The translations under genes and the position numbers were made by a program. Positions 1,307-10,972 of a stretch of DNA of 34,815 bases are shown piece by piece; the first letter of the stretch is position 1; every line of letters begins with the position of its first letter. The stretch is from Candidatus Omnitrophota bacterium (GTDB lineage Bacteria; Omnitrophota; Gorgyraeia; Gygaellales; Profunditerraquicolaceae). Below the pieces are notes generated by a model that saw nothing but the letters and a program-made list of their open reading frames with translations, ran no database searches and had not been told where the DNA came from. The DNA is taken from positions 1-34,815 of the forward strand of contig CAINQO010000120.1 of NCBI GenBank assembly GCA_903852325.1, read 5' to 3'.

Positions 1307-2515
1307 TTAATGGGAGATCAGCTGCGAGATCTTGAAAATCGGTAAAAACAGGGCGATGACTATGCCGCCGATGACGATCCCCAGGAAAGCAATGACCATC
1401 GGCTCGATCAGGCTGGTCAGGGCGCTGGCCGCGGCGTCTACCTGGTCATCGTAAAAATCGGCGATCTTGGCAAGCATTTTTTCCAATTGCCCGGTCTGCT
1501 CCCCTACGCTGATCATCCGGGTGACCATGGGAGGGAAAACCCCGCTTTTCCCCAACGGCCGGGCGATCGGTTCTCCGTTACGCACGCTTTTAGAACAATT
1601 CACTACCGCCTCTTCCACCAGCTTGTTGCCCGAAGTTTTGCTGACAATGTCCAGGGCGCTTAAAACCGAAACCCCGCTTTTAACCAAAGTAGAAAAAGTC
1701 CGGGAAAATTTGGCCACCGCCAGTTTTTTTAACAGCGGGCCGAAAACCGGGACCTTTAGAATGAAACGGTCGAATTTATACCTCCCCTTTTCCGTCCCCA
1801 GCCATCTTTTGAAGGCGTAACCGCCGACAATCATAACCGAAACCGCGATCAGAAAATATTTTCTCAGGATGTCGCTGACCAGGATCAGGATCTGGGTGGG
1901 TATAGGTAGCGTGCCACCGAGAGAATCAAAGATCCCTTTGAAGGTCGGCACGACCTTGATCAAAAGCACCGCGGTAATAATGATCGCCATGGTCACCACC
2001 ACCGCCGGATAAACCAGGCTGGAGGTGATCTTGCGGTTTAAGGCCGCCTGTTTTTCCATAAAGGTCGCCAGGCGGTCCAGGATCTCATTGAGCATACCGG
2101 AGGCTTCACCGGCCTTGACCATATTCACAAAAAGATCGGAGAATATCGCCGGGTGCTTGGATAAGGCGTCGCAGAAACTCATCCCCCCTTCGATATCCTG
2201 GCGCACCACTCCCACCACGCTTCTTAGATTATCGTTTTCGATCTGCTCGGCTAAAATTCCCAGGGCATTGACCAGGGGGATGCCGGCATCGATCATCGTG
2301 GCCAGCTGCCGGGAAAAAACCACCAGGTCATCCAGCTTGATCCTTTTGCTTTTTAATTTTGTCTGGGCCTCGGAGACTTTGGCGAACTCCACAGACATCA
2401 CCATCATCTCTTTTTTATGCAAAATTTCCGCTACTTCCGGCTCGGAGGCGGCCTGAATTATGCCGGTAACAGTTTGTCCTTTTTTATCTTTAGCGGTATA
2501 TTTATAAGAATTCAC
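1307..2515 (-). CDS. gspF: GspF/PilC-family inner membrane platform protein
   Basis: This 402-residue protein is the inner-membrane platform of type II secretion and type IV pilus machines. It sits under the pseudopilus or pilus and couples the cytoplasmic ATPase to pilin insertion. Two homologous GspF domains are visible, with repeated cores VFSRQLATMIDAGIPL (from residue 66) and FSRTFSTLVKSGVSVL (from about 270). Membrane segments lie near residues 168-190, 219-234 and 368-395, the usual three-segment plan. The C-terminus LFLPIFKISQLI is typical and the length is normal, so the gene looks complete. It is the last gene of the motor locus and is followed by the terminator at 1037-1066. Sequence alone does not separate type II secretion from type IV pilus; no secretin or pilin gene lies in the window. 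Confidence 0.93.
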   Translation of the reverse strand: MNSYKYTAKDKKGQTVTGIIQAASEPEVAEILHKKEMMVMSVEFAKVSEAQTKLKSKRIKLDDLVVFSRQLATMIDAGIPLVNALGILAEQIENDNLRSVVGVVRQDIEGGMSFCDALSKHPAIFSDLFVNMVKAGEASGMLNEILDRLATFMEKQAALNRKITSSLVYPAVVVTMAIIITAVLLIKVVPTFKGIFDSLGGTLPIPTQILILVSDILRKYFLIAVSVMIVGGYAFKRWLGTEKGRYKFDRFILKVPVFGPLLKKLAVAKFSRTFSTLVKSGVSVLSALDIVSKTSGNKLVEEAVVNCSKSVRNGEPIARPLGKSGVFPPMVTRMISVGEQTGQLEKMLAKIADFYDDQVDAAASALTSLIEPMVIAFLGIVIGGIVIALFLPIFKISQLISH

Positions 2516-2605: not shown

Positions 2606-3676
2606 CTACAAATTATCTACCACCTTCAAAAACACATCGACGATCTTCGGGTCAAATTGCGTGCCGCTGTTGCGCTTAATCTCCAGCACCGCGTCATCTT
2701 TAAACAGGGGTTTTTTACGGTATGAACGCGCCGAACGCATCGCTTCATAAGCGTCGGCCAGATGAATGATCCGGGCTCCCAGCAGGATGTCATTGCCTTT
2801 TCTTCCATCCGGGTAGCCGGAACCGTCATAATGTTCATGATGCTGCCTCACTAAGTCTACCACCCCGTTTAAAAAAGTCAACGGTTCCAGGATTTGCGCC
2901 CCGATCACAGGGTGTTTGCGCACCTGTTCCCACTCTTCCCCGGTAAGCCCGGAGCATTTGAGCAAAATATTGTCCCCGATACCGATCTTGCCCAAGTCAT
3001 GTAATTCGCAGGCCTGCCGCAGAGTCTCGATCTCTTTTGCCGGAAGCTTCATGAAGCCGGCGATCTCCACCACGTAACGGGCGACATTCTCGGAATGGCT
3101 GTGCGTATAATGATCCCGGGCGTCGATCGCCTGCGCTAAAACTTTAATTGTGCGCATGTAGGTCGAACGCAAATCTTCGTAAAGCCGGCTTAAATTGGTG
3201 GTCGCCTCTTCGATCCTGCCGGCTAAAAGCATGTTCTGCTTTTCCAGGGAGCGGTTACTCTCCTTCAATCCTGACAAAAATTTCCGGTTAGAACAAAGCA
3301 GGGAACGCAGCTTGATCCCTTTGTCGATAGTAAATTTCAATTTATCCGCATCCACGGGGCTGACCAGATAATCGAATGCCCCGGCGTCGATCAATTCGGA
3401 GACATCCTCTTTTTCCCGGGACTCCAGGAGGACAAGGATCACCGAATACGGGTCGAGAATTTTGAGTTCAGCGATCAAATAATCGGCGCTGGTACCTTCC
3501 AGAGGCGGCTTGATTATAACCAGGTCGTAATCCTCCTGCCGGATATTTTCCAAAATGACCCGTAATTGCGACCCGGAAAAAACCGCGTAATCCCCTAACT
3601 TCAGGATCTTCTCCTTGATCGCGGCGCAAAGCTTTTGGTCTTCGCAAATTAAAAGTATTTTTCTCAGGACGCCCAT
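2606..3676 (-). CDS. Receiver-like/HD-GYP protein, predicted cyclic-di-GMP phosphodiesterase
   Basis: This 356-residue protein has an N-terminal CheY-like domain (about 5-120), a helical linker (130-170) and an HD-GYP domain (185-353). The HD-GYP part keeps the metal and catalytic signatures: HDLGK at 226-230 and HHEHYDGSGYPDG at 279-291, so c-di-GMP hydrolysis is predicted. The receiver is degenerate. The acidic pair E12-D13 remains, but the phospho-acceptor aspartate is Lys56 (context IIKPPLEG) and the conserved lysine of the K-P motif is Ser106 (YLVSPVD). Classical phosphorylation is therefore unlikely. The ATG is preceded by GAGGAG and lies 1 nt after the stop of the upstream ATPase gene, so the two are co-transcribed. 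It is probably the brake on c-di-GMP made by the GGDEF protein of the same locus. Confidence 0.92.
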   Translation of the reverse strand: MGVLRKILLICEDQKLCAAIKEKILKLGDYAVFSGSQLRVILENIRQEDYDLVIIKPPLEGTSADYLIAELKILDPYSVILVLLESREKEDVSELIDAGAFDYLVSPVDADKLKFTIDKGIKLRSLLCSNRKFLSGLKESNRSLEKQNMLLAGRIEEATTNLSRLYEDLRSTYMRTIKVLAQAIDARDHYTHSHSENVARYVVEIAGFMKLPAKEIETLRQACELHDLGKIGIGDNILLKCSGLTGEEWEQVRKHPVIGAQILEPLTFLNGVVDLVRQHHEHYDGSGYPDGRKGNDILLGARIIHLADAYEAMRSARSYRKKPLFKDDAVLEIKRNSGTQFDPKIVDVFLKVVDNL

Positions 3677-3677
3677 T

Positions 3678-5390
3678 CTACTCCTCGGTAGTTATACGGA
3701 GCGCTTCATCTAAAGTAGTCAGCTCTTCTTTAACCTTCTGGAAGGCATCATCGCGCAAAGTTTTCATTTCCAGTTTTTTTACCGCGTAAGCCTTGACCTC
3801 ATCCATGGATTTTCTGCGGATGACCATTTCCCGGATCGTGTCGTCGATCAAAACCGTTTCCAGGACGGCGATCCTGCCGAAGAATCCGGTATTATTGCAA
3901 TATTTGCATCCCTGGGCGGCATAAAAGGTAGTTTTACCGAGGAACCCTATTTTCTTCAAAAAATCTTCCGGGATCTGGACCGGCTTGCGGCATTTCAGGC
4001 AGATCTTGCGCGCCAGGCGCTGGGCGCAAAGCATCACCACGCTGGAAGCCACCAGAAAAGGCTCAACCCCCATATCGATCAGCCGGGTGATACTGGAAAT
4101 CGCGTCATTGGTGTGCAGGGTCGAAAGCACAAGCTGTCCGGTAAGCGAAGCTTTGATGGCGATATCCGCGGTTTGGGCATCGCGGATCTCTCCGATCATA
4201 ATTACATCCGGGCTCTGGCGCAGGATAGAACGCAATCCGGAGGCAAAATCCAAACCGATATCCGGCTTGACCTGCATCTGGGTGATCCCTTCCACCTGGT
4301 ATTCAACCGGGTCTTCAATGGTGATAATATTCCTCTCGGCGGTATTTAACTGGTTTAATACTGAATACAAAGTGGTAGACTTGCCGCTTCCGGTCGGCCC
4401 GGTAACCAGGATCATTCCGAAAGGTTTGGCGATCGCCGCTTTAAAAGTGGCCGCCGGCTGCTCGGAAAAACCTAATTTGTCCAGGCCGATGGAAAGGTTC
4501 CCCTTATCCAGGGCGCGCAGGACAAATTTCTGCCCGAAAGTCGTCGGCAGGCTGGAGACGCGGAAATCCACTTCCCTTCCCTCAGTTTTAACTTTAAACC
4601 GGCCGTCCTGGGGAATGCGGTTTTCCGTAATATCCAGGTTGGAGATAATTTTAAGGCGGGCTAAAATCGCGTTTTGATTGATCTTGGGCACCCGCAGGAC
4701 ATCGTGGAGGGAACCGTCCACCCGGTAACGGATACGCAGGCAATCGATCTCCGGCTCCACATGAATATCCGAGGCCCTCCTTTTTAAAGCCTGGGCCAGG
4801 ATGATATCGACTAACTGCACGATAGGCGCTTTTTCGCTCTCCAGCAGGACATTAGACAATTCGATCTCTTCGGACTTAAATAATTCCACATTTTTTTCCT
4901 GGCCGGAGAGGTTGGTCAGAGAGGATTCGTCAAGGATGCTCTGCATTTCCTTGGCCTCTTTGCGGTACTGGCTGTCGATGGCGCGGGAAATTTCATCTTC
5001 CGGGCTTAAGACGATATCGATATTGCACCCGGTAAAATTACTCAGATCGTCGAGAGCGAAAATATTCAAAGGGTCGGACATCGCCACAGTAAGGGTCGAA
5101 CCGATCTTGGAGAGGGGGATCGTGTTATAAAGTTTAGCCATCCGCTCCGGGATCAGGTTGACGATATCGCTGTCAAACCGGAATTTTGCCAGGCGCAAAG
5201 TCGGCAGGTAAAGCTGCTCGGAAAATAAAGACAGAAGCGCTTCTTCGTTAACGATCCCGGCTTCGACCAGCACCCTTCTTAAGGGGATCCCTTTCTCTTT
5301 CTGCAGATTAAGGGCCCGCTCCAGCTGGTCTTTGGTGATCTGCTTGCTCTTAAGCAGGATCTCAATTATATTTTCTTTTAGTGAATGCAT
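3678..5390 (-). CDS. gspE: GspE/PilB-family motor ATPase (second copy)
   Basis: This 570-residue ATPase would power pseudopilus or pilus assembly at the inner membrane together with the GspF-like protein. An MshEN-type N-domain covers about 1-145. The ATPase core has RASDIHVEP (205-213), Walker A GPTGSGKS at 331-338, Walker B VIMIGEIRD at 396-404 and the histidine box LVLSTLHTND. Four cysteines (464, 467, 495, 498) form the zinc-binding C-M domain usual in GspE and PilB. The first MshEN repeat has lost its glycines (IIEILLKSKQ at the expected RLGxxLxxxG), so nucleotide binding by this copy is doubtful. No Shine-Dalgarno sequence is visible before the ATG. It is the near-paralogue of the gene at 5423-7138 and runs straight into the HD-GYP gene. 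Confidence 0.93.
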   Translation of the reverse strand: MHSLKENIIEILLKSKQITKDQLERALNLQKEKGIPLRRVLVEAGIVNEEALLSLFSEQLYLPTLRLAKFRFDSDIVNLIPERMAKLYNTIPLSKIGSTLTVAMSDPLNIFALDDLSNFTGCNIDIVLSPEDEISRAIDSQYRKEAKEMQSILDESSLTNLSGQEKNVELFKSEEIELSNVLLESEKAPIVQLVDIILAQALKRRASDIHVEPEIDCLRIRYRVDGSLHDVLRVPKINQNAILARLKIISNLDITENRIPQDGRFKVKTEGREVDFRVSSLPTTFGQKFVLRALDKGNLSIGLDKLGFSEQPAATFKAAIAKPFGMILVTGPTGSGKSTTLYSVLNQLNTAERNIITIEDPVEYQVEGITQMQVKPDIGLDFASGLRSILRQSPDVIMIGEIRDAQTADIAIKASLTGQLVLSTLHTNDAISSITRLIDMGVEPFLVASSVVMLCAQRLARKICLKCRKPVQIPEDFLKKIGFLGKTTFYAAQGCKYCNNTGFFGRIAVLETVLIDDTIREMVIRRKSMDEVKAYAVKKLEMKTLRDDAFQKVKEELTTLDEALRITTEE

Positions 5391-5422: not shown

Positions 5423-7138
5423 CTACTCATCAGGTGTAGTCACCCTGAGCACTTCTTCGATCGTGGTTAGTCCTTTAAGCGCCGCGTCCAAACCATCCTC
5501 GCGCAGGGTTTTCATTCCTTCCAAGCGCGCCTGCTGTTTAATGAAATGCTCCTGCGAGTTGATAAGGATCATTTCACGGATCTTGGCGCTCAGCTGCAGC
5601 ACCTCACAAATTACCGTCCGTCCGGAATAGCCGGAGTTAAAACAGTGCGGGCAGCCTCTACCTTTAAAAAACTGTAATTTGCCGGTCTTTTGCAGGTCAA
5701 TTTTCAAACTAAGCGCGATATCATCCTTAAGCACATAGGATTCTTTACAGAAGGTGCAGATCTTGCGCACTAACCTCTGCGCCAGCACGCAAACCAGGGA
5801 AGAATTGATCAAGTACGGCTCCACTCCCATATTCACTAAACGCACCACTGCTCCGGCGGCGGTAGTGGTGTGCAGGGTGGACAAGACCAGATGGCCGGTG
5901 AGAGCGCTTTTTATGGCGATATCCACGGTTTCATAATCGCGGATCTCTCCGATCATAATAATATCCGGATCCTGGCGCAAAATGGAACGCAGCGCCGCGG
6001 CAAAACTAAGCCCGATTTCCGGCTTGGCGGTCACCTGGTTAATCCCTTCCAACTGAAATTCGACCGGGTCCTCGACAGAAACGATATTTTTATCCGGGCT
6101 GTCCACGGATTTTAAGACCGCATAAAGGGTTGTGGTTTTTCCGCTGCCGGTGGGCCCGCAGACCAGGATCATTCCGTGGGGAAGCGCGGAGACCTTGCTC
6201 AAGACTTCGATCGGGTATTCGCTGAAACCCAATTTTTTTATGTCCAGGTTTGCCTGCGATTTATCCAGGATGCGCAGCGCAACTTTTTCCCCGAAGCTGG
6301 AAGGCAGGATGGAAACGCGAAAATCCACCTCCCGGTTAAGGATCTTGACCTTAAACCTGCCGTCCTGAGGGAGGCGGTGTTCGGCAATATCCAGTTCGGC
6401 GATAACTTTGATCCTGGAAACCACGGAAGCATGCATATTTTTCGGGGGAGCTTTTTGCTCCCGCAGCATTCCGTCGATCCGGAAACGCACGCGCAATTTC
6501 TTTTCAAAAGGCTCAACGAGGATATCGGAAGCTTTTTTCTTGATCGACTCCTCCAGCATCATATTCACCACTTTAATTACCGGCGCTTCGTGGCTGATCC
6601 GGTCAAGTTCCTGGTCGCTGGGGGCAACCTCTTTATCCTCCTTGATCAGCTCAATGGAAGAAGTAGTCATCTCCTTAACCAGGTCGTCGATGATCCCCTT
6701 GGAAGTATCCGGGTAAGACAATTCGATCGTCTGGTTAATATCGGCGACGCTGGAGATGATCGGGTTGATCTTAAAACCGGTAAGCGCCTGCACATGGTCG
6801 ATGGCAAAGATATTCAGGGGATCGGCCATGGCCAGGGTAATCGTATCCCCCAGCTTGGAAATGGGGATGATCTGGTAATGCCGGGCAATATCGACGGGAA
6901 TGATCTTGGCGATTTCCGTGTCGATCTTAAAACGTTTTAAATCGATCAGCGGTAACCCCAGCCCTTCGCTTATGGTCGAGATCAATTCGTTCTCTTTGAT
7001 GAACTTAAGCTCAACGATAATATCGCTGAGCTTCCCGCCTTTTTGCGTCTGGACTTTTAAAGCCTGGGCAAGATGCTCGGGAGTAATGAGCTTGTTGTTG
7101 ATCAATATTTCGGTAAGCCGGTCTTTAAGTGATACCAT
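5423..7138 (-). CDS. gspE: GspE/PilB-family motor ATPase (first copy)
   Basis: This 571-residue hexameric-motor ATPase is collinear with its neighbour at 3678-5390. It has an MshEN-type N-domain (1-145), Walker A GPTGSGKT at 328-335, Walker B IIMIGEIRD at 393-401, the histidine box LVLSTLHTTT and the zinc cysteines 461, 464, 496 and 499. The conserved SDIHxEP motif reads SDILVEP here, so its histidine is leucine, unlike the second copy. In the first MshEN repeat R7-L8 are kept but the glycines are replaced (T9, K16). Tandem ATPases suggest separate substrates, or extension versus a modified assembly role; retraction is less likely because both have the long PilB/GspE architecture rather than the short PilT one. 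The ATG follows an intergenic inverted repeat and has no clear Shine-Dalgarno sequence. Confidence 0.93.
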   Translation of the reverse strand: MVSLKDRLTEILINNKLITPEHLAQALKVQTQKGGKLSDIIVELKFIKENELISTISEGLGLPLIDLKRFKIDTEIAKIIPVDIARHYQIIPISKLGDTITLAMADPLNIFAIDHVQALTGFKINPIISSVADINQTIELSYPDTSKGIIDDLVKEMTTSSIELIKEDKEVAPSDQELDRISHEAPVIKVVNMMLEESIKKKASDILVEPFEKKLRVRFRIDGMLREQKAPPKNMHASVVSRIKVIAELDIAEHRLPQDGRFKVKILNREVDFRVSILPSSFGEKVALRILDKSQANLDIKKLGFSEYPIEVLSKVSALPHGMILVCGPTGSGKTTTLYAVLKSVDSPDKNIVSVEDPVEFQLEGINQVTAKPEIGLSFAAALRSILRQDPDIIMIGEIRDYETVDIAIKSALTGHLVLSTLHTTTAAGAVVRLVNMGVEPYLINSSLVCVLAQRLVRKICTFCKESYVLKDDIALSLKIDLQKTGKLQFFKGRGCPHCFNSGYSGRTVICEVLQLSAKIREMILINSQEHFIKQQARLEGMKTLREDGLDAALKGLTTIEEVLRVTTPDE

Positions 7139-7224: not shown

Positions 7225-7671
7225 CTAATCTTTGTCTTTATAGTACTTCTCGATCGCTTTCTTGACGTCGGATGAGGTGGAAACAAATGTCTGCACGCTG
7301 CAGCCGCTGAGCAGCTCCACGTCTTCAATCGCCTGGATATTCAAAGGGTTGGACATCGCCAGGGTAAGGTTGTTACCGATCTTGTCGATCGGCACCAATA
7401 AATACTGCCGCGCCACCCTGCCGGGGATAATGTTGGTAATATCCGTATCCACGTCATAATTGCCCAACGGCAGATACGGAAAGCCGTACTGGGCGGTAAG
7501 CGCCTGGGCAATATCATCCTCTTTGACAAAACCCAAATCCACCAGGATCTCGCCGATCAGGCCGCCTTTTGCCTTCTGGACTTCCAGCCCCTTGTCCAGC
7601 TGGGACTGGCTGATAATCCCGCGGTCAAGCAGCATTTCGCCCAATGGTTTATTATTGATTCTTCTGATCAC
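7225..7671 (-). CDS. Stand-alone MshEN-type (GspE N-terminal) domain protein
   Basis: This 148-residue protein is collinear with the first 145 residues of both adjacent motor ATPases and then stops. It has no ATPase domain, membrane segment or signal peptide. Two 24-residue MshEN-like repeats are visible at 9-32 (PLGEMLLDRG then L25, L29, Q32) and 38-61 (LIGEILVDLG then I54, L58, Q61), joined by the 5-residue spacer known for c-di-GMP-binding MshEN domains. It keeps the repeat glycines (11, 18, 40, 47) better than either ATPase, although the leading arginine of the consensus is missing in both repeats. The start is GTG, preceded by AAGGA. It may be a free regulatory subunit or c-di-GMP receptor for the motor. 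A truncated ATPase remnant is possible, but it ends cleanly and no downstream ATPase remnant is seen. Confidence 0.82.
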   Translation of the reverse strand: MIRRINNKPLGEMLLDRGIISQSQLDKGLEVQKAKGGLIGEILVDLGFVKEDDIAQALTAQYGFPYLPLGNYDVDTDITNIIPGRVARQYLLVPIDKIGNNLTLAMSNPLNIQAIEDVELLSGCSVQTFVSTSSDVKKAIEKYYKDKD

Positions 7672-7749: not shown

Positions 7750-9162
7750 TTAAAAAACTACCACTTTATTTTTTCCGCCGGCTTTAGCCTTTTTCAACAA
7801 TTCTTCGGCTTTGGCGGTCAGTTGCTCCACCGCCACCCCATCCAGGGGATTTTCGCTCACCCCGGCGCTGCAGGTAAGCTGCTCCTGGCCGGAGCCAAAA
7901 GCGTTTTGGATCTCCCTGCAAATCCTCTCCGCGATGCCCTGCGACTGCCTTTTATTCTTCTCCGGAAGGATCAACGCGAATTCATCGTCACCGATGCGCC
8001 CGGCCCGGTCCACCTGGCTGATACACTGCAGGATGATCCCGGCCATTTTCTTCAGCGCCGATTCCGCATAAATCAAGCCGAACTTGTCCCGGTAATTATT
8101 AAAATTATCGATATCGAAAATAATGTAAGAGCACGGACGCTGATAGGCGATCGCCCGGGCGATCTCCTCTTTCAACCGGCTTTCGATAAAATAACGGTTA
8201 TACAGCCCGGTCAGGGCGTCTTTTATTTCCAGCCTCTCGATACGGTGGGCCATCGCGTCATTTTCGACGGCCACGGCGATCTGCTTGGAAAAGATATCCA
8301 ACAATTCGATATCTTTTTTATCGTAAGAGAAATTTTCCCGGGTGTTGGCGATCCCCAGGACCCCTTTGACGTTTTCTTTTAAAAATACCGGCACGCATAA
8401 GCAATTTTTTACCTGGAACTTGGCCAGGAGATCCTTCCCGAGATTGCCGCCCAGCGAATTGCGCTCATCCAGGATAAGGACCTTATTGTCGTTAAGCGCT
8501 TTTTTATAAATTTCTTCGCCCGGATCGATCTGCACGCGGTTTAAATAACCCGACTTTTCCCCGTCGGCGACCTTGACATAGAATGAACCTTTGGCTTCGT
8601 CCTTAAAAAGCAGGAAGGCAATCTCGGAATTAGCCAACGCCCGGCTTTTTTCCACGGCAATCTTCAGGATCTCGGTGAATTTCCCTCCCTGGGTGATCAG
8701 CGCGCTTATCTGCATCAGGTTGGAAAGCACCATTATTTTCTTCTGGATCTCAATGTTGATCTGGGTGGTTTTCTCGCTGTAACCTTTGAGCTCATCCATG
8801 TTGCGGCGGATCCGGCCGGTAAGCTTGTTTAAAACATCCCCCAGCTCCCCGACTTCGTCCCCCTGACGCACGGAAAATTTCCGGCCCAGGTCCCCGGCAG
8901 CGATGAATTTAGCTTCCGTGGCTACGGCAATCAGGCGGTCAAAAACCTCCTTGATCACTAAAAGCCCGACTACCGCCAGGAACACGCTTACCCCCAGATA
9001 AACCAGGATATCCGGCTTTAAACCGATCTTCGGAAAAATATAAATTGAGAGCAAATAGACACAGACTAAAAAGGGAAGGATAAACATCAGCTGGAAAGCC
9101 ACCATCAGCTTTTGTTTAATGGTGCGTGAATTCAAGGAAAGGCGATCAAGCTTATTTTCCAT
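7750..9162 (-). CDS. Membrane HAMP-GAF-GGDEF protein, predicted diguanylate cyclase
   Basis: This 470-residue protein has two membrane segments (about 21-46 and 51-70) separated by only a short loop, a HAMP linker (71-125), a GAF domain (about 146-298) and a C-terminal GGDEF domain (310-470). The GGDEF domain keeps LTGLYNR and the metal motif DIDNFNN, but the signature reads GDDEF (391-395) with the second glycine replaced. The product-inhibition RxxD site is absent, because Ser stands at the arginine position. GAF may sense a small ligand. The protein would make c-di-GMP for the MshEN-bearing proteins encoded next to it, if the altered signature is active. The ATG is well placed behind GGAGAAAACT. 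It is the first gene of the motor/c-di-GMP block. Confidence 0.9.
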   Translation of the reverse strand: MENKLDRLSLNSRTIKQKLMVAFQLMFILPFLVCVYLLSIYIFPKIGLKPDILVYLGVSVFLAVVGLLVIKEVFDRLIAVATEAKFIAAGDLGRKFSVRQGDEVGELGDVLNKLTGRIRRNMDELKGYSEKTTQINIEIQKKIMVLSNLMQISALITQGGKFTEILKIAVEKSRALANSEIAFLLFKDEAKGSFYVKVADGEKSGYLNRVQIDPGEEIYKKALNDNKVLILDERNSLGGNLGKDLLAKFQVKNCLCVPVFLKENVKGVLGIANTRENFSYDKKDIELLDIFSKQIAVAVENDAMAHRIERLEIKDALTGLYNRYFIESRLKEEIARAIAYQRPCSYIIFDIDNFNNYRDKFGLIYAESALKKMAGIILQCISQVDRAGRIGDDEFALILPEKNKRQSQGIAERICREIQNAFGSGQEQLTCSAGVSENPLDGVAVEQLTAKAEELLKKAKAGGKNKVVVF

Positions 9163-9217: not shown

Positions 9218-10972
9218 TTAGCTGGCAATAGTTTTATTAAATTCCGCGCGCAGGTGTTCCTTGCTGATACCGGTGTCGATAAAATCCCAGGGAAATAATT
9301 CTTCCGCGGGTTTTTCCGCAAGATATTTCTGCGGATCGACCCCGCATTCCTGGAACGCTTCCTGCCATTTAGAGAAAGAAAAATGGTTGCTCCAGGCATC
9401 AAACCTGGCCCCTTTTTTATAAGCGGACAGGATCACCGGGCCGAGGTTACGGTCACCGCGGGAGAACACCCCCTCCAGATACGCCATCTGCAGGTCATGA
9501 AAACTGAATTTGAGCCTCTTATTCTTACAGCGGCTCCTTAAATAATCCTGTTTTTGCCGGATAAGCTCAGGGGGATCCATCTTTTGCCATTGCAACGGCG
9601 TGTGCGGCTTGGGGATCAGCGGGTTAACGCTGATATTGATTTGCGCGGGAGACCCGTTTATTTTTCTTTTTTCTTCCGAGGCAAAAACGGAAAAATCGAT
9701 GATCCCCTGCAAATCCTCCTGCGTCTCTGAAGGCAGGCCGATAAGGAAATACAATTTTAAATGCTGGTAGCCCCCCTGATAGGCCCGGGTGATCGCCTGG
9801 AGAAATTCTTCTTCTGAAAAATCTTTAGCCAGCGCCTGGCGCAGCCGCGGGGTCCCTGCCTCCGGGGCAAAAGTCAACCCGGTTTTTTTAGTCTTGGCGA
9901 TCACCGCCGAAACCTCTCCCAGCAAAGCCTTGGCTTTTAAGGAAGGCAACGCCAAATTCACCCCCAGGCGGTTAAAATAATCGCTCAACTCCGAAACCAA
10001 CTCCTGGATTTGCGGATGATCTCCGACGGACAAACCGGTCAGCGCCAATTCTTCATAACCGCTGGAGGCGTAAGCAAGCTTGGCCTGGGCCATTATTTTT
10101 TCCTTTTTCCTTATCCTTAAGGGGTAGTATTGGCTGCGCGCCTGGCAAAACCGGCAGCGGTTGGGGCAACCGCGCATCAATTCCAAAGTGATCCGGTCAT
10201 GGATCGTTTGCACGTAAGGCACCATCCAACTGCAGGGAAAATATGCGGCGTCAAAATCCTCCACAATGCGTTTTTTTATTTTTGCCGGCAGCGCCGGAAA
10301 CCGGGGGACAAAACTAAGCAGCTCTCCCTCCCCGCCATATTCTACCCGATACAAAGCCGGGGCATACACCCCTTCCACCGAGGAAAGCATGATCAAAAGT
10401 TCTTCCTTGGTCATTTTTCCCGATCTATATTCCTCCTTATATTTAGCGTATGAATTCAAAAGCTCAACCGCTGCCTCTTCCGCCTCCCCGATAATAAACA
10501 AGTCAAAAAAATCCGCCAGCGGCTCGGGATTGAGCGTGCACGGCCCTCCGCCGATGACCAGCGGGTACTGCTGGCCGCGCGCCGTTGCTTCCAGGGGGAG
10601 CCCGGACAATTCCAGGATGTTTAAAATATTGGTATAATTTAATTCCGAGCCGATCGAAAAACCCAGAAAATCAAAACCAGCCAATTCCCGGCCGGATTCC
10701 CAGGAAAAAAGCCGGCGGCGGGAATTTTTTAATCCCTCCTCCATATCCTGCTCCGGGGCAAAAAACCTTTCGCAAATCACCTCAGGCAAAGCATTCAGCA
10801 CTCCGTAAATGATCCGCAATCCCAAATTGCTCATCCCGACCTCATAAAGGTCCGGAAAACCCAGGGCAAAACTTACCCGGCAGGAATGAAAATCTTTTTT
10901 TACGGCGTTCCATTCGTTCCCCAGGTATTGGCCGGGGCGGTGGATATTTTGTAATAAATCTTCTTGGATCAT
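9218..10972 (-). CDS. Radical SAM protein of the TIGR03960 type
   Basis: This 584-residue protein begins with a domain resembling the B12-binding-like N-region of the family (FALGFPDLYEVGMSNLGLR, about 35-53; IGGGPCTLNPEPLADFFD, about 140-157) followed by a radical SAM core. The 4Fe-4S cluster cysteines are in MRGCPNRCRFCQ (C269, C273, C276), a CxxxCxxC motif. In many bacteria this family is linked to rodA/mre genes and to a TIGR03936/DUF2344 partner often followed by rng. Here rodA is indeed the upstream neighbour, but the partner and rng are not present in the window. The substrate is not established to my knowledge. The start ATG has only a weak AAGGG eight nucleotides upstream. A 64-nt gap with a hairpin separates it from rodA. 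Confidence 0.85.
   Translation of the reverse strand: MIQEDLLQNIHRPGQYLGNEWNAVKKDFHSCRVSFALGFPDLYEVGMSNLGLRIIYGVLNALPEVICERFFAPEQDMEEGLKNSRRRLFSWESGRELAGFDFLGFSIGSELNYTNILNILELSGLPLEATARGQQYPLVIGGGPCTLNPEPLADFFDLFIIGEAEEAAVELLNSYAKYKEEYRSGKMTKEELLIMLSSVEGVYAPALYRVEYGGEGELLSFVPRFPALPAKIKKRIVEDFDAAYFPCSWMVPYVQTIHDRITLELMRGCPNRCRFCQARSQYYPLRIRKKEKIMAQAKLAYASSGYEELALTGLSVGDHPQIQELVSELSDYFNRLGVNLALPSLKAKALLGEVSAVIAKTKKTGLTFAPEAGTPRLRQALAKDFSEEEFLQAITRAYQGGYQHLKLYFLIGLPSETQEDLQGIIDFSVFASEEKRKINGSPAQINISVNPLIPKPHTPLQWQKMDPPELIRQKQDYLRSRCKNKRLKFSFHDLQMAYLEGVFSRGDRNLGPVILSAYKKGARFDAWSNHFSFSKWQEAFQECGVDPQKYLAEKPAEELFPWDFIDTGISKEHLRAEFNKTIAS

Follow-up and report, generated by a model that had tools for sequence, protein, structure and literature searches.

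A free-standing MshEN protein encoded beside two tandem pilus ATPases in Omnitrophota: a probable c-di-GMP receptor subunit

Among pilus motors that respond to cyclic dimeric GMP (c-di-GMP), the closest described systems are MshE of Vibrio cholerae, PilF of Thermus thermophilus and the PilB/FimX pair. The G11L and G40I variants of MshE are reported to bind c-di-GMP poorly or not at all (PMC5013675). In PilF, the GSPII-B domain is reported to carry Lys and Leu at the positions of the leading arginines of its two motifs and to have a dissociation constant (KD) of 6 nM, and GSPII-C, whose motif II starts with Pro, one of about 460 nM; the study broadened the motif to R/K/L and proposed that a hydrophobic residue at this position means tight binding (PMC11731258). 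PilB of Xanthomonas and Pseudomonas is described as having no such motifs, a separate receptor, FimX, acting on it (PMC8389850, PMC11656802), so that sensor and motor on different chains are known in principle. Myxococcus xanthus is reported to encode 17 to 22 MshEN proteins (PMC8844925, PMC5013675), and how c-di-GMP binding by MshEN reaches the pilus is described as unresolved (PMC11731258, PMC11656802). Here we describe a 148-residue MshEN protein encoded in a stretch of 34,815 nucleotides (the window; contig CAINQO010000120.1) from a Candidatus Omnitrophota genome of 1.63 Mb in 123 contigs. Omnitrophota are very small bacteria about which little is known. The protein probably serves a type IVa pilus with two tandem assembly ATPases as a dedicated c-di-GMP receptor subunit.

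The open reading frame (ORF) encodes a complete, free-standing MshEN domain and is a member of the MshEN family, with the following parts:

7225..7671, minus strand: free-standing MshEN protein, 148 residues, GTG start (ORF, PF05157, NF053729, AlphaFold2 model)
7576..7647, minus strand: c-di-GMP motif I, residues 9-32 (within the NF053729 match to residues 9-61; coordinates computed from the ORF)
7489..7560, minus strand: c-di-GMP motif II, residues 38-61 (same NF053729 match)
7234..7488, minus strand: alpha/beta half (MshEN_C), residues 62-146, containing D96 (PF05157)

The c-di-GMP motif model NF053729 matched residues 9-61 over 53/53 model positions with 67.9 bits (cut-off 38; E 4.9e-19). 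The comparison with the PF05157 profile, which an earlier note on this DNA had proposed, gave 65.3 bits (cut-off 23.1; E 4.9e-18); this model spans only residues 62-146, the half without motifs. Both 24-residue motifs and their 5-residue spacer follow the numbering of V. cholerae MshE, and the residues can thus be read directly against the published MshE complex: L10, G11, G18, L25, L29, Q32, G40, G47, L58 and Q61 are kept, Ile replaces L39 and L54, Pro replaces R9 and Leu replaces R38. The repeats, the spacer and the four glycines (11, 18, 40 and 47) that the note had read from the letters were borne out by the ORF and the full-length motif match. An AlphaFold2 model built with 79 aligned sequences reached a mean pLDDT (predicted local distance difference test) of 92.1, and its best solved structural match was MshE with c-di-GMP (5htl_B; Z 18.9, root mean square deviation 2.3 Å, 138 aligned residues), followed by the N-terminal domains of XpsE, PilF and Xanthomonas PilB. 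An ATPase domain with Walker A and B, as in PilB or GspE, was not found on the 148-residue chain (no T2SSE match), nor was the GGDEF-EAL architecture of FimX, the profile search finding MshEN only.

Downstream of this ORF lie the genes of two assembly ATPases:

5423..7138, minus strand: PilB1 assembly ATPase, eroded MshEN, zero motif glycines (profile matches)
3678..5390, minus strand: PilB2 assembly ATPase, eroded MshEN, one motif glycine remaining (profile matches)

PilB1 has Walker A, a Walker B-type GEIRD and two CxxC motifs, and Walker A, GEIRD and two CxxC are all present in PilB2. In their MshEN domains, in contrast to the free-standing one, the site is eroded. The earlier note had placed the loss in the first-repeat glycines; it extends beyond that repeat, since the window PilB1 lost all four motif glycines and PilB2 three of four, keeping the G47 equivalent.

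We searched 193 genomes of the phylum with the window protein, counting all MshEN proteins. A match was found in 191/193 genomes and a short open frame (about 145-250 codons) in at least 130/193 (at least 113 at E 9.5e-44 or better); 80 of these short-frame loci were fetched for the locus counts. In an alignment of 80 free-standing proteins with the N-termini of 76 PilB1 and 72 PilB2, window rows excluded, both guanine-contacting glycines (G11 and G40) were present in 79/80 free-standing proteins versus 0/76 PilB1 and 0/72 PilB2, and a single one of them in 0, 9 and 11 proteins, respectively. The sole exception (L110) is an alignment artefact: in this 206-residue form the motif half is repeated, and the first repeat, which has both glycines, is aligned out of register. 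Within the 70 loci containing all three proteins, both glycines were found in 69 free-standing proteins and in no PilB1 or PilB2. Q61 showed a similar distribution (80/80 free-standing, 0/76 PilB1, 19/72 PilB2), Q32 was present in 77/80 free-standing proteins, and position 11 of PilB2 was occupied by Ile, Leu or Val in 54/72. Mean pairwise identity over the same 70 loci was 0.574 (free-standing), 0.407 (PilB1) and 0.326 (PilB2) for the motif half, and 0.56, 0.475 and 0.458 for the other half. Judging from these alignments, the constraint on the site is maintained in the free-standing protein and relaxed in PilB1 and PilB2. The claim that the free-standing domain keeps the repeats better than the ATPases therefore extends to the whole family, and the outcome named in advance as fatal to it, a decaying remnant without a conserved surface, was excluded by the alignment of the family. 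The free-standing family also has a signature of its own, since D96 is invariant (80/80) where Ser is found in 62/76 PilB1 and 65/72 PilB2.

The leading arginine of each motif, part of the original consensus, is indeed absent, as the note had remarked, Pro9 and Leu38 standing in its place; the altered binding that it considered possible need not be weaker, given the affinities reported for GSPII-B and GSPII-C. Leu38, which complies with the widened R/K/L motif, corresponds to L196 of GSPII-B, and Leu occupies this position in 78/80 free-standing proteins. Pro9 does not comply. We do not regard the missing arginines as disqualifying the protein from the MshEN family. In the AlphaFold2 model the first helix starts at residue 10, directly after P9. 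In GSPII-B, ligand entry is reported to require unwinding of the first helix turn, and a mutant with a shorter helix to bind more tightly (PMC11731258). P9 might thus pre-open the binding site in the window protein; position 9 is Pro in 5/80 orthologs and Gln in 52/80.

Gene order links the orthologs to pilB. A pilB gene lay directly downstream in 77/80 loci, two pilB genes in tandem in 69/80, and the gap to pilB had a median of 8 nucleotides, with overlap in 26/77 as judged from mechanically assigned ORF starts (the window gap is 86 nucleotides). Other downstream neighbors were PilC (66/80) and HD-GYP (25/80), and upstream we found GGDEF (61/80), radical SAM (46/80) and a short ATPase of PilT length (315-379 residues; 27/80), absences in these counts including contig ends. 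Prepilin-like ORFs, recognized by eye further along in L083 and L209, together with the type of PilB and PilC, point to a type IV pilus. Among the 80 loci that a scan of genome contigs listed, nearly all carried the name Candidatus Omnitrophota, including the complete chromosome of Candidatus Velamenicoccus archaeovorus LiM (L209), a species reported to express type IVa pili (PMC10066038). That paper, the main genome study of Omnitrophota, treats type IVa pili and predation without using the term "c-di-GMP" in its main text. A plasmid collection gave 16 matches, of which 4 were inspected; in all 4 the domain was on an ATPase-sized gene.

Because the 80 loci had been chosen by likeness to the window protein, we took 22 genomes without a strong match as controls, 21 of which had PilB-type matches. 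Among those with the pilB1-pilB2 cassette, a free-standing protein with both glycines is encoded in G029, G085 and G151, and a paralog lies further along in G120; G139 is cut by a contig end, and G118 and G104 are described below. PilB proteins encoded outside the cassette (19 from control genomes and one from the window genome) kept both glycines in 15/20, and PilB3 of the window genome, from another cluster, kept the full motif (67.7 bits on NF053729), so that the glycine loss in PilB1 and PilB2 is not general in the phylum. L137, one of the 5/20 without both glycines, grouped with cassette PilB2 in a first quick tree. In G118 (L260), a free-standing protein of 149 residues (49.5 bits on NF053729, cut-off 38) accompanies a PilB1 of 412 residues that consists of the ATPase domain only, with no MshEN, and a PilB2 of 542 residues that has the alpha/beta half and no motif match. 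A split or frameshifted pilB (149 plus 412 residues make about one PilB) was considered and rejected here, as the short protein falls in the free-standing clade, with caution due for its long branch (1.66).

For a more careful tree we used 115 rows, comprising every third of the 80 loci (27), the window rows, the outside-cassette PilB proteins and additions. Long or odd rows (PilF GSPII-A and -C, L151, L146, L114 PilB1, L108 PilB2 and L122) were excluded and seven others added; the tree is also without the L129 free-standing form and L260 PilB2. Free-standing proteins and paralogs (43 rows) lay on one side of a branch with support of 100/97.9, and the inner forks were weak because the alignment has only 147 columns. 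In the first quick tree, odd rows included, the free-standing label had to change 3 times, and PilF GSPII-A branched at the base of the free-standing group. Since the free-standing proteins form their own clade, the separate subunit is an old lineage in the phylum rather than a recent break of PilB1. The earlier note had suggested that sensing moved from the motor to a subunit; a division between a sensor-like subunit and eroded motors is indeed supported phylum-wide, and it is the move that the tree does not bear out, the free-standing proteins branching apart from PilB1 and PilB2.

The remaining genes of the window cassette are as follows:

7750..9162, minus strand: HAMP-GAF-GGDEF protein, active site degenerate (GDDEF) (profile matches, alignment)
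2606..3676, minus strand: receiver-HD-GYP protein, HD and HHExxDGxGYP intact (profile matches, alignment)
1307..2515, minus strand: PilC/GspF platform protein (profile matches)

The ORF at 9218-10972 (minus strand) is presumably a radical SAM gene, and the order along the minus strand is then radical SAM, HAMP-GAF-GGDEF, 148-residue protein, PilB1, PilB2, receiver-HD-GYP and PilC. A 16S rRNA gene (RF00177) follows pilC on the same strand at 1-873, at the contig end. In the GGDEF protein of the cassette the second Gly is present in only 12/62 aligned rows; most relatives share the degeneracy, which recalls the GGDEF domain of FimX, and judged by its sequence the protein probably has no cyclase activity. 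Because of this degenerate active site, we rejected the idea that the adjoining gene supplies a local c-di-GMP circuit. Intact GG(D/E)EF proteins are encoded on contigs C27, C24 and C35 of the window genome, and the HD and HHExxDGxGYP motifs are kept in the window HD-GYP protein and in 25/26 aligned rows, the remaining row being masked; because of these intact motifs, c-di-GMP is likely made in the organism. By eye, Lys seems to take the place of the expected phospho-accepting Asp in the receiver domain of the HD-GYP protein, and this domain may therefore not be phosphorylated.

Several observations weigh against a receptor subunit dedicated to the ATPase pair. G104 keeps pilB1 and pilB2 without the free-standing gene and without the GGDEF gene, and G094 keeps the free-standing gene and HD-GYP with no pilB1 or pilB2 between them, where a fault of the metagenome assembly is possible. 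The adjoining GGDEF protein is degenerate and was not found upstream in 19/80 loci, which makes a local source of c-di-GMP doubtful. The loci were selected for likeness to the window protein, a choice biased toward motif-bearing rows. Both ATPases of the window pass the NF053729 cut-off of 38 (51.9 bits for PilB1 and 43.1 for PilB2). Finally, distances among the free-standing proteins correlated with those of the PilB1 and PilB2 N-termini to nearly the same degree when radical SAM served as control (partial r 0.57 and 0.56), and with PilC as control the values were 0.62 (PilB1) and 0.33 (PilB2), no significance being computed for either pair; co-evolution specific to PilB1 was thus rejected, the correlations being unspecific.

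We consider it rather unlikely that the protein is a c-di-GMP receptor with another target, such as the GGDEF or HD-GYP neighbor or envelope proteins from the genes upstream, its place in the pil cassette being a matter of history. Retention of the gene in G094 would fit such a role, as would paralogs flanked by PilZ genes on both sides (C72) or joined to PilZ on one chain (L119), but the near-constant position directly before pilB, often with overlap, argues for the ATPases, and neither proposed neighbor accompanies the gene as regularly (HD-GYP downstream in only 25/80).

It is improbable that c-di-GMP binding persists in modified form in PilB1 and PilB2, with the free-standing protein as one receptor among several. 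Their scores above the cut-off and their retention of Q32 and most leucines would allow it, and perfect conservation may be unnecessary according to Wang et al. (PMC5013675). However, no PilB1 or PilB2 has both guanine-contacting glycines, even Ala in place of such a glycine in a rebuilt PilF GSPII-A is reported to cost 10- to 30-fold in affinity (PMC12002112), conservation in both ATPases is lower in the motif half than in the other, and in G118 the motif half is absent from both. Since both window ATPases exceed the NF053729 cut-off, automatic annotation would label them c-di-GMP binders; such matches on PilB1 and PilB2 in Omnitrophota probably do not mark binders.

Even less probable is a purely structural subunit that stabilizes PilB or fills its N-terminal ring with no nucleotide involved, as the ligand-contacting residues G11, G40, Q32 and Q61 are so strictly retained. 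That the ORF is what is left of a decaying PilB gene, as its shortness and its position adjoining the PilB genes might suggest, is hardly credible against a mean identity of 57% in the free-standing proteins versus 45% and 41% in the ATPase N-termini (70 loci), a clade of its own and short open frames in so many genomes.

For the favoured receptor subunit of the pilus motor, we infer c-di-GMP binding, the partner and the direction of the effect as follows. The four-helix half would bind one c-di-GMP between motifs I and II, with the guanine edges on the backbone of G11 and G40, the bases on leucine triangles and the phosphates on Q32 and Q61; L38, replacing Arg, would cap the base at motif II. 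The bound or the empty subunit would then dock, probably via the alpha/beta half with D96, to the N-terminal domains of PilB1 and PilB2 or to the stator protein PilM, which such domains are thought to touch, and docking would set pilus extension. We tentatively raise a more specific possibility, namely that throughout Omnitrophota, the predator Ca. Velamenicoccus archaeovorus among them, type IVa pilus extension is switched by an MshEN subunit that acts in trans, lacks the arginines, has high affinity and joins or displaces the burnt-out N-terminal domains of PilB1 and PilB2, sensing residing wholly on the separate chain of a machine with two motors. If the receptor reading is right, the sensing step of a pilus motor could be studied separately from the motor, as the receptor would be soluble, only 148 residues long, and could be supplied to the ATPases in vitro or omitted. 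It would also be a point of pilus control in a phylum whose pili have been linked to a predatory or epibiont life (PMC10066038).

Other candidate c-di-GMP receptors were observed in the phylum. A second free-standing MshEN protein of the window genome (L116:6435-8011, contig C72; 160 residues, 45.6 bits) is encoded between two PilZ-domain genes, giving three putative receptors in a row. L119:4581-5441, and also L118, L121 and L124, encode MshEN proteins of 277-306 residues with a PilZ-like tail (confirmed by Pfam for L119 only); these chains have Ser or Thr at position 40 and combine two types of c-di-GMP receptor domain. L259:3809-5926 encodes a 705-residue PilB without a c-di-GMP motif match and with a C-terminal PilZ domain, perhaps another replacement for a lost MshEN sensor, and the PilB of L146 has a C-terminal receiver domain. 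Free-standing forms of 202-206 residues with a second motif half occur in L110 and L129:806-1414, NF053729 finding two stretches in L129. In L054, L069, L078, L080, L084 and L095, a second free-standing MshEN paralog lies between pilB2 and pilC; these paralogs have both glycines in 6/6 and form their own group in the tree.

The division of labour had been put forward as undescribed. This does not hold for a separate receptor as such, for which PilB/FimX is a precedent; a stand-alone MshEN in this role beside PilB was not found in the literature searched, preprints and the supplementary domain-partner tables of PMC5013675 lying outside that search. A Paenibacillus strain is reported to transcribe a 60-residue pilB fragment with MshEN, which is a truncated gene (PMC9765702). 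What distinguishes the Omnitrophota arrangement is that its probable receptor is the motor's own type of domain, encoded as a separate protein.

MshE (PDB 5HTL) resembles the window protein in fold, length (145 versus 148 residues), the two 24-residue motifs with their 5-residue spacer and the numbering of contact residues. It differs in carrying the domain on the ATPase itself and in its pair of leading arginines, where the 148-residue protein has Pro and Leu; D108 of MshE, which touches guanine 2, is Asn in the window protein and in 61/80 orthologs. PilF, with GSPII-A, -B and -C, likewise has several MshEN domains per pilus motor of which only some bind c-di-GMP, and motif II begins with Leu in GSPII-B, as in our protein, and with Pro in GSPII-C. 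Its three domains, however, sit on one ATPase chain, whereas in the window the intact copy is a protein of its own beside a pair of ATPases. PilB with FimX (and PilZ) is alike in outline, combining a motif-less PilB with a separate c-di-GMP receptor whose GGDEF domain is also degenerate, yet FimX, of about 700 residues, binds c-di-GMP via a degenerate EAL domain and has no homology with the 148-residue protein.
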